Source: a bacterium
Lineage (GTDB): Bacteria; JAMCPX01
Reading direction: 5' to 3'
Assembly: GCA_021789095.1 (NCBI GenBank)
Contig: JAJYJX010000114.1
Coordinates: 1 to 8,396, forward strand
DNA: 8,396 nucleotides
Each line of letters starts with the position of its first letter. The stretch's first letter is position 1. The translations under genes and the position numbers were made by a program. This document shows, in pieces, positions 1,757-4,274 of this stretch. The notes beneath the pieces were generated by a model, which worked only from the letters and a program-made list of their open reading frames with translations, did not search any database and had not been told where the DNA came from.

Positions 1757-2740
1757 CTAATCATTTTCTTCATTGTTGGTACGTTGAATAGGCTTGCTCT
1801 CCTGTATCTTTTTCACCACCTTCACCGCCGTCCCGTCTGCCAGTGCATAATTCCCCTGTGTAATAACAAGCTGCCCTTGATTGAGTCCGCTCAGAATTTC
1901 AACTTTGCCATCCTCTTCATAACCTGTCTTGACCGTAACGTCCCGCGCTATGGAATCCTGTCCGACAACCATAATGTATTCTCTTCCTGTATCCGGATCA
2001 AAGAGGATCGCATCTTTCGGCACAACAAGCGTGTTTGTATGGGTATTGCTTACAATATCAACAACAGCGAACATACCGTCCTTTATTTCCTGGCTCTTGT
2101 TGGGAAAGCTTACATTAAGCGCTACGGTCTGGGTTTCCTGAGATACTGTCGGGTTGATCGTTGCAATCCTGCCATTGAACACATCATCCGGGAAGGATAA
2201 AAAATGGATAAGTACCGTATCGCCGATCTTAACCTGTTCAAGATACAGGGAAGGAAGATCCACATGCAGATAGGTGCTTGACAGGTCTTCCACTGCAACA
2301 ATAGGCGCGTTTGCCTGAACAAGTGCATTACTGCTGACATACCGCTTACTCACATATCCGTTAAATGGAGATGTCAGCGATAGAATACCAAGCCTTAGAA
2401 AATACTGTTTCTTTACACCGGATATAGCTGTACTGCCTCTGACAGCCGCCTCTGCTTCAATAGGTCTCAGCTTTGCGACAATACCGCCTCTTTTTACAAA
2501 ATCTCCTTCTTTAACCAACAGTTCCGTTACAACGCCTTCTACGGGTGAATTTATTTCAACCTTCTTTAAAACGTCCACCCTGCCTGTTGCCTGGATAAGA
2601 TGGTTAACATCCCCGCGCGCTACCTGAACAGCTTTGACCTCCACCTGCGGGGCTTGCTGCTGGGCCTGTTGTTTTGGCGAACAGGAAGAAAACACACTCC
2701 CTGCAAACAAAAAAAATAAAAGTACAATAAACACATTCAT
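1757..2740 (-). CDS. RND efflux membrane-fusion (periplasmic adaptor) lipoprotein
   Basis: Links the RND pump to the outer-membrane channel. Numbered from ATG at 2740 (327 residues), it has a hydrophobic signal segment (2-18) and a likely lipobox VFSSC with lipid-anchored Cys20, then a Gln-rich stretch. Two lipoyl half-motifs follow, at about 61-91 (INSPVEGVV...VKEGDFVKRG) and about 121-151 (LTSPFNGYVSKRYV). Beta-barrel and membrane-proximal domains run from about 155 to 310. Only about 29 residues separate the lipoyl halves, so the coiled-coil hairpin is very short. The start is uncertain. The frame stays open upstream to GTG at 2965, through two repeats. ATG 2740 lacks any positive residue before the hydrophobic core. 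GTG at 2755, inside the repeat, would add VRNDK. ATG at 2956 has a much better ribosome site. The gene lies between the outer-membrane factor and the pump in the usual operon order. Confidence 0.9.
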   Translation of the reverse strand: MNVFIVLLFFLFAGSVFSSCSPKQQAQQQAPQVEVKAVQVARGDVNHLIQATGRVDVLKKVEINSPVEGVVTELLVKEGDFVKRGGIVAKLRPIEAEAAVRGSTAISGVKKQYFLRLGILSLTSPFNGYVSKRYVSSNALVQANAPIVAVEDLSSTYLHVDLPSLYLEQVKIGDTVLIHFLSFPDDVFNGRIATINPTVSQETQTVALNVSFPNKSQEIKDGMFAVVDIVSNTHTNTLVVPKDAILFDPDTGREYIMVVGQDSIARDVTVKTGYEEDGKVEILSGLNQGQLVITQGNYALADGTAVKVVKKIQESKPIQRTNNEEND

Positions 2741-2743
2741 TTT

Positions 2744-2809
2744 GTCATTCCGCACTTGATGCGGAATCCAGTCTTTCCTTCTCTGGATTCCTGTTTTCGC
2801 AGGAATGAC
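2744..2809. repeat. Dispersed palindromic repeat, copy B (cloverleaf-forming)
   Basis: Same plan as copy A: outer arms GTCATTCC (2744-2751) and GGAATGAC (2802-2809), hairpin CCGCA-CTTGA-TGCGG (2750-2764), central stem GAATCCAG (2764-2771) with CTGGATTC (2783-2790), and hairpin CCTG...CAGG (2790-2803). The arms differ in sequence from copy A but remain paired. Read on the minus strand, its first 27 bases match the first 27 plus-strand bases of copy A at 26 positions. It ends 3 nt before ATG 2740 and is translated in frame if the gene starts further upstream, giving the familiar repeat-derived peptides IPAKTGIQ and WIPHQVRNDK. Confidence 0.9.
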
Positions 2810-2858
2810 AAGAGGCGAATTCCTTGTGGAGTTACAAATCTCATCAATCGAACAAAGC

Positions 2859-2894
2859 CCCACTTGGGTACCTCGCCCTCTTAACCTGAGAGGG
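2859..2894. repeat. Hairpin-bearing segment, probably a second type of dispersed repeat
   Basis: Two adjacent hairpins are visible: CCC-ACTT-GGG (2859-2868) and CCCTCT-TAACCTG-AGAGGG (2876-2894). On the minus strand the region reads as HPPLRLRGRG, a peptide typical of translated intergenic repeats and not of a folded domain. It lies between copy B and the end of the outer-membrane factor gene. No second copy exists in the window, so the repeat assignment rests on its look alone. Confidence 0.5.
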
Positions 2895-2948
2895 GGATGG
2901 AGAACAACTTCCGGTTTTTTCTTTATATTATTTGTCCAATAGAATTTA

Positions 2949-4274
2949 TCACTCATATATTTCACCTCTTAAAAATTGTATTTTATACAATGCCTTGTAA
3001 AAATCAGCCGTGGCATTTGACAAGTCTATCTGCGTATTTGTCATAAGCTGTCTGTCAAGCAGCACCTCGAAACTGCTGATCCTGCCGCCGCCTGTGTACC
3101 TTGCCTCGGAATACCGGAAGTTCTGTTCGGACAGTTTTATGTCCTTTTGATAAAGGTTTACACGCTCAACTGCATTTGCCAGATCCTTTAAGGTATTCAC
3201 ATACGAAAGCTTAAGCTCATTGATAAGCAATGCCTGCTTGTAATGAACCTTTTCAAGCCTCATTTGCGCGGCATCCACATTATACGAAATAGCTCCCCAT
3301 TCAAAAACAGGGAGATTAAGCGTGGCAAGGTAAGAATAGCCCCTGTATTGAGCATAAGCTATTGGCTGCGGCTCAGCAAGCCATCCGGCATCAGCTTCGA
3401 TGCTCAGCGTAGGCAGGTGCTTTGACTTTTCCGCACTGACATTATATTTCTGCGACTTCTCCTCATACCGTACAGCCTGTAATGTTGGGTTATTACTAAA
3501 TGTCTGCTCATTGATATCTGAAGCAGATGGCACTGTAAAAGGCACTGATTCAAGTTCTAAAACAGTTTCCGGTGTAATACGGATACCTGTTAAGGATGAC
3601 AGCGCATTGAGCTGTGAAAGCAGTTTTATATTGAATGACTTGAGCTTGGCCTTTGTATTGTCAAGCTCTATCTGTGTTCTGAGCACATCATTTTCCGTCA
3701 CAAGCCCTGTGGAAAGCAGCCGCTTCGTCAACGACAGATAATCCCCGAGACTGTTTATGTTATCCTGAAGGATTTTGATCTGCTCTCCATAAGTTACAGC
3801 ATCTATAAATGTATTCTTTACTGTATATGCCAGTTCATTCTCAACTGCCTTTTGGTCATATTTTGCAGACTCGTAAGACATCCTCAACTGTTTTGTGGAA
3901 AGCCAGCGTGAAGGGTTGAATATGTCGACCTGCGCTATTGCCTGGAGTGTGGCAACGCCCCCGTTCGTTACAGCAGGGTCATATCCATAAGCCCTGCCAT
4001 AACTTGAAGCAATAGTAATGGAGGGTAACAATAATGCACGTGATTGTTTATACTCATTGCTGGAAATGCCGGTATTGGCGCTTGCATAGCCCGACAGTGG
4101 GTAGTTCTGGATCGCTTTATCAATGCACAGCTTTAACGTGATAGCTTCATCTGCGTAAGTATTGCAAGGTATTGATACAAGCATTATGATGTTCGCTAAT
4201 ACGAATGCGCTGATCAAAAGCCCTATTCCCTTTAGCTTTCCACCCTTCCGAAGAAATCTTATCATATTATACAT
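2949..4274 (-). CDS. TolC-family outer-membrane efflux protein
   Basis: Outer-membrane channel of the tripartite pump, exporting substrate passed on by the RND and membrane-fusion partners. The 441-residue length is normal for the family. Residues 1-41 form a signal peptide: basic n-region (RFLRKGGKLK), hydrophobic core (about 16-35) and a probable cut after TYA. The mature part shows the two related outer-membrane-efflux repeats, about 44-235 and 255-437, each rich in long amphipathic helices. Family-like marks are the internal IFNP (118-121) and LPVFEWGAI (321-329), which resembles the usual PLFDWG strand. The ATG at 4274 is the only reasonable in-frame start; an upstream stop closes the frame, and the ribosome site is weak (AGGA about 16 nt away). 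First gene of the pump operon, divergent from the two-component system. Substrate unknown. Confidence 0.93.
   Translation of the reverse strand: MYNMIRFLRKGGKLKGIGLLISAFVLANIIMLVSIPCNTYADEAITLKLCIDKAIQNYPLSGYASANTGISSNEYKQSRALLLPSITIASSYGRAYGYDPAVTNGGVATLQAIAQVDIFNPSRWLSTKQLRMSYESAKYDQKAVENELAYTVKNTFIDAVTYGEQIKILQDNINSLGDYLSLTKRLLSTGLVTENDVLRTQIELDNTKAKLKSFNIKLLSQLNALSSLTGIRITPETVLELESVPFTVPSASDINEQTFSNNPTLQAVRYEEKSQKYNVSAEKSKHLPTLSIEADAGWLAEPQPIAYAQYRGYSYLATLNLPVFEWGAISYNVDAAQMRLEKVHYKQALLINELKLSYVNTLKDLANAVERVNLYQKDIKLSEQNFRYSEARYTGGGRISSFEVLLDRQLMTNTQIDLSNATADFYKALYKIQFLRGEIYE
2954..2969 (-). promoter_or_regulatory. Strong ribosome binding site with ATG overlapping the end of the outer-membrane factor gene
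   Basis: On the minus strand AGAGGTG (2969-2963) is followed after 6 nt by ATG (2956-2954). That ATG overlaps the last 8 nt of the outer-membrane factor gene, including its TGA stop at 2951-2949. It opens a frame starting MSDKFYWTNNIKKK that continues without a stop into the membrane-fusion protein. This is the arrangement of a translationally coupled start and is far better than the signals near 2740. It is probably the original start of the membrane-fusion gene. Confidence 0.6.

Follow-up and report, generated by a model that had tools for sequence, protein, structure and literature searches.

An adaptor gene of an RND efflux system, in which palindromic repeat sequence lies between a plausible start codon and the hydrophobic core of the signal peptide, raises the question of where translation begins and how an export signal came to hold such an insert. 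In the window (the whole stretch of DNA analysed, 8,396 nucleotides) two gene sets diverge. The plus strand encodes a response regulator plus a histidine kinase akin to those of heavy-metal systems; the minus strand carries genes for an outer-membrane factor (OMF) and a periplasmic adaptor, together with the beginning of an RND pump gene. The OMF is TolC-like (2949–4274, minus strand; Pfam OEP, 145.6 bits). The adaptor, a membrane-fusion lipoprotein (1757–2956, minus strand), matches NCBIfam TIGR01730 RND_mfp at 176.3 bits (cut-off 94.9), which identifies it as an RND periplasmic adaptor, and it also matches Pfam HlyD_D23.

A ribosome-binding site (AGAGGTG) and an ATG at 2956 (together 2954–2969, minus strand) lie over the 3′ end of the OMF gene, whose stop codon ends at 2949, and a second in-frame start candidate, GTG, is located just upstream at 2965. 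The adaptor frame opened by ATG 2956 runs without interruption to its stop codon at 1757–1759. It begins with a 14-residue segment, MSDKFYWTNNIKKK (2915–2956), and the hydrophobic core and lipobox, MNVFIVLLFFLFAGSVFSSC (2681–2740, Cys codon 2681–2683; placed by alignment with sister genomes), follow exactly 58 codons later. The lipobox, VFSSC, is slightly off consensus; those of the sisters are mostly LASC. A sequence-only reading of the window had described a ribosome site with its ATG overlapping the OMF end, the open frame, an insert of about 58 codons and a core beginning only at 2740, and all of these are borne out. The insert is composed of a REP dimer (LVIPAKTGIQRRKDWIPHQVRNDK; 2741–2813) and a hairpin segment (PEVVLHPPLRLRGRG...RNSP; 2814–2914), both in frame and on the minus strand.

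The REP element, termed a cloverleaf in that reading, is an inverted dimer of two stem-loops with about 45 matches at E≤0.001 in the window genome, and each of the family's nine genomes has it. In an alignment of 32 copies these start with TGTCATTCC or CGTCATTCC and thus carry a CGTC or TGTC end, and the common form is ATTCCTGC-GAAA-GCAGGAAT-CCA, with an AT-starting stem of 8–9 bp, a loop of 4–5 bases and a CCA tail. The copy at 2741–2813 has one change, which weakens the stem beside the loop. Copies are dispersed and mostly intergenic, often as inverted dimers. By its sequence the element fits the superfamily of CGTC-tagged REPs (Di Nocera et al. 2013, PMC3733652), which includes dRS3 and Rickettsia RPE-4 and RPE-6 and shares with it the TGTC/CGTC tag, the 8-bp AT-starting stem, the mostly GAAA loop, the CCA tail and the inverted dimers. 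There, as here, most copies lie between genes and some are in frame inside them. Among dispersed-repeat intervals of all kinds in the 1.35 Mb (63%) of the window genome surveyed, 136 of 161 are intergenic by a simple mechanical gene call. A second dimer (copy A, 1621–1686, no strand assigned) lies outside any gene in the gap between the adaptor and RND pump genes, such that REPs are found on both sides of the adaptor coding region. CGTC REPs have no dedicated transposase (PMC3733652). Y1 transposase (Y1_Tnp) genes are present in eight of the nine genomes (L100 on contig C189 and L219 on contig C143 of the window genome, and L097–L104); no REP was seen within about 1.5 kb in eight gene neighbourhoods examined, and one further Y1 gene (L219) is ~0.6 kb from a REP.

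The hairpin segment is probably a second repeat insertion, although it is not an obvious repeat in the window genome, where its best other match is partial (E=0.004). Parts of it match sister genomes G003, G004 and G005 (E from 2e-7 to 1e-3), and a related element with 14 partial matches in G005 fills the corresponding slot there. The sequence-only reading had taken both segments as repeats; this stands for the REP, but the hairpin recurs too weakly in the window genome to count as one of its mobile repeats.

The window genome was compared with all eight sister genomes of the family (G001–G008). The adaptor is found next to the OMF gene in every sister, at 75–87% identity in comparisons, and in all nine genomes a ribosome site with its ATG (AGAGGTGAAATATATG or a close variant) straddles the OMF stop at the same place. 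An assembly artefact at the repeat was considered and rejected as unlikely because OMF and adaptor adjoin in all nine, with both flanks syntenic. What differs is the distance from the ATG to the lipobox Cys, which spans 31 codons in G003, 35 in G004, 38 in G002, 41 in G006, 50 in G008, 53 in G001, 91 in the window genome and 129 in G007. G003 has a short uninterrupted signal, MNDKQRNYRIRK-ILFSLFFMYTIWSMIFMSSC (ILFSLFF...SSC), behind the same ribosome site and ATG, and MSDKFYWTNNIKKK resembles its n-region MNDKQRNYRIRK in charge and position. The sequence-only reading had proposed that the ancestral gene began at 2956 and was later split by repeats, and had named a sister with its basic n-region joined directly to the core as support; G003 has this form. 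It had also named two patterns that would count against the proposal, orthologues all starting at the 2740 position with unrelated sequence upstream, and conservation as protein of the peptide between 2956 and 2740. The sisters show neither: the upstream ATG is kept and the peptide varies. As judged from these alignments, ATG 2956 is the ancestral start of the adaptor, because the ribosome site and ATG are kept in nine of nine genomes, the insert is variable and G003 is uninterrupted.

The contents of the slot differ from genome to genome. The REP and hairpin fill it in the window genome, hairpin-type repeats in G005, and in G007 at least four stretches that have copies elsewhere in that genome. 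In G001, G004, G006 and G008 it holds GTCGGAC/GTCCGG-rich segments that, searched as whole segments, are not found elsewhere in those four genomes, and the G001 filling was accordingly rejected as a dispersed repeat. Filling by dispersed repeats is thus shown, at the level of sequence matches, for the window genome, G005 and G007 only. The close sisters G001 and G008 differ in this region by a 9-nt, three-codon indel and by four changed codons, too few for a dN/dS reading. In a tree of adaptor and OMF from the nine genomes the groups G001/G008/G005 and G006/G007 are well supported; insertions were not counted on this tree because the window genome and G003 are poorly placed (supports 24–48).

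Despite this variety the interval from ATG to lipobox is in frame and free of stops in eight of the nine genomes, the exception being G005 (254 nt). The probability of eight of nine being in frame by chance is about 0.001, with openness uncounted and only as a guide, since the genomes are related. When 174-nt windows are set to end at the other REP copies of the window genome, a given frame is open in 9.7% of them, and keeping the frame adds a further chance cost of a factor of ~3. By frame and conservation, the REP in the adaptor appears to be an in-frame insertion in a working gene of the kind described for Rickettsia palindromic elements (RPEs). All in-frame n-regions are net positive, with more K/R than D/E. 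In adaptors from outside the family the n-region is mostly 0–16 residues long and at most 28, as measured with a rough automatic choice of starts.

The region also folds better than shuffled sequences (z −3.1, DNA parameters), and REPs are often transcribed hairpins (PMC3733652). Together with the two REPs flanking the adaptor coding region, this would suit a regulatory RNA, with the two elements acting on translation or on mRNA decay between OMF and adaptor and the open frame being incidental. This is quite improbable: the sisters have unrelated or almost no sequence at the site, such that no RNA element is conserved there, an Rfam scan of the window gave no match, and preservation of the frame would be left unexplained.

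A more serious alternative is that the working start has moved downstream, to a GTG within the REP (2753–2755, minus strand; MRNDKMNVF..., with basic residues supplied by the REP) or to ATG 2740, the upstream frame serving as a leader that feeds the restart. Starts near the core with short, normal-looking n-regions exist in the window genome, G007 and G005, and have GGGAG upstream of the ATG in G007 and AGGAG upstream of a GTG in G005. In G005, moreover, repeats break the old frame, which stops at TTATGA; a new ATG that overlaps this stop opens the adaptor frame. A GGGGAGGGGG stretch just upstream of this ATG (L011:1294-1540) could serve as its ribosome site. Such restarts would also agree with a caution in the literature that REPs annotated as N-terminal coding sequence may in many cases go untranslated (PMC3733652). 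However, neither GTG 2755 nor ATG 2740 has a good ribosome site, and both are within the 3′ stem of the REP or at its edge. In G002 the stretch leading from the conserved ATG to the lipobox offers no further start codon, and the single one in G004 is a TTG within the core, such that a restart has no candidate in either and the upstream ATG must be the start there. Restarting would also leave the open, in-frame state of eight genomes unneeded. A downstream start is thus unlikely, and the repeated filling with different sequences while the frame is kept in eight of nine genomes favours a long precursor over reinitiation. Translation from 2956 across the repeats, and with it a long cytoplasmic n-region, is most likely the present-day state, as far as sequence comparison can indicate.

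A long precursor could alternatively be a functional extended signal rather than tolerated sequence. Autotransporters have exceptionally long N-terminal signal extensions before the core (PMC2805444); the extension here is of similar length, with a basic n-region in every genome. Whereas the autotransporter extensions share a domain organisation (PMC2805444), the one described here is repeat-derived and different in every species; neither its length nor its sequence is conserved between genomes, and G003 does without it. A functional role of this kind is very improbable.

The explanation we consider probable is that the adaptor starts at ATG 2956 and is translated through the in-frame repeats, that the extension is removed harmlessly, and that the n-region is a permissive site that has been filled repeatedly. 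ATG 2956 would still be the start, coupled to the end of the OMF gene, and the REP dimer and hairpin segment would have invaded the cytoplasmic n-region in frame to give a lipoprotein precursor with a net positive n-region of ~72 residues. What the Sec machinery recognises is the hydrophobic core, and what signal peptidase II recognises is the lipobox. The n-region may then need merely to be cytoplasmic and positive, so that a frame-keeping insertion would be nearly neutral and a frame-breaking one would be lost unless a new start arises, as in G005. We infer that the extension is cut off together with the signal peptide and is harmless, and that insertions of this kind are neutral. The site would thus have taken up different sequences on several occasions, with the fillings screened for an open frame.

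Of the repeats that fall within frames in the surveyed part of the window genome, three REPs are credible in-frame insertions in genes, namely those in the adaptor, in a TadE-like protein (L175) and in an ABC ATPase (L170/L058). The TadE-like gene (Pfam PF07811; L175:2077-2742 on contig C64, minus strand) has a REP in frame in the cytoplasmic N-terminus, between MINLYCIEKKKKTKDGQ and GQSATEFIIIFPVLLL (MINLYCIEKKKKTKDGQ-REP-GQSATEF). Its G003 orthologue is short, MKNLYFIKSKTGQAMTEFLIVFPALLL (MKNLYFIKSKTGQAMTEF), as are those of G002 and G007; at the same place G001 has a REP, and G004 and G008 a different segment. From these alignments the pattern is the same n-region pattern as in the adaptor, although the start codon is less clear than the adaptor's in G001 and others. 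Export-signal n-regions in this family thus apparently absorb repeats freely. The ABC ATPase (L058:7300-8409 on contig C59, minus strand) has a REP fragment and other repeat-like sequence in a loop after NMKD, with different repeat-like peptides in the window genome, G004 and G008; this is not an export signal. Two REPs of the window genome, upstream of an hslV-like gene (L059) and of a ferredoxin-like gene (L061), look in frame, and were rejected as extragenic since the natural start comes after the REP. Elsewhere in the window genome, a lipoyl-synthase-like radical-SAM gene (L066:2490-2552, contig C147) has its last codons and stop supplied by a REP. In two large exported proteins of G003 (L090:122-3436, minus strand; L091:1696-4908, plus strand) the linker that precedes a conserved domain contains in-frame REPs, and homologous-looking linker pieces in G001 (L087) and G007 (L270) contain even more repeats.

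Genes with in-frame palindromic repeats have already been described in Rickettsia and in REP-rich genomes, among them cases of different repeats at one site. RPE-1 and other Rickettsia palindromic elements occur in protein-coding genes (reviewed in PMC10969869), and different REPs are located at about the same recB site in two Xanthomonas species (PMC3733652). The inserts described here are like RPEs in being palindromic, in frame within otherwise normal genes, and of different types at the same locus in orthologues. Same-site insertions of RPE-4, RPE-6 and RPE-7 in Rickettsia have been attributed either to one diverged original element or to hot spots (PMC3767692). The present case is from another bacterial family and, in contrast, its fillings show no apparent relationship to one another, a point in favour of a permissive site. 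REPs at N-termini are often of doubtful coding status, and Rickettsia conorii proteins with an N-terminal RPE-1 are expressed (PMC3733652). The adaptor differs from those N-terminal REPs, which that paper treats as often not translated, in that its ancestral start precedes the repeat and the repeat lies in an export-signal n-region. A literature search of open-access papers yielded no description of recurrent insertion at signal-peptide n-regions.

The doubt over translation of N-terminal REPs can thus be addressed by a comparative test, which for one gene points to a start upstream of the repeat with the frame kept. For annotation, such starts are easily misplaced at a downstream ATG. The n-region of an export signal would be a place where repeats can pile up at little cost, a pattern that two unrelated proteins share in this family, and it may offer a natural experiment on how little of a signal-peptide n-region matters. 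Whether the pattern is general is more tentative: it is possible, though we lean somewhat against it, that the cytoplasmic n-regions of export and membrane-anchor signals are preferred sites of in-frame palindromic repeats throughout the family, with positive charge and an open frame the only needs. If true, n-regions would be genomic safe harbours for repeats and a source of new N-terminal sequence.
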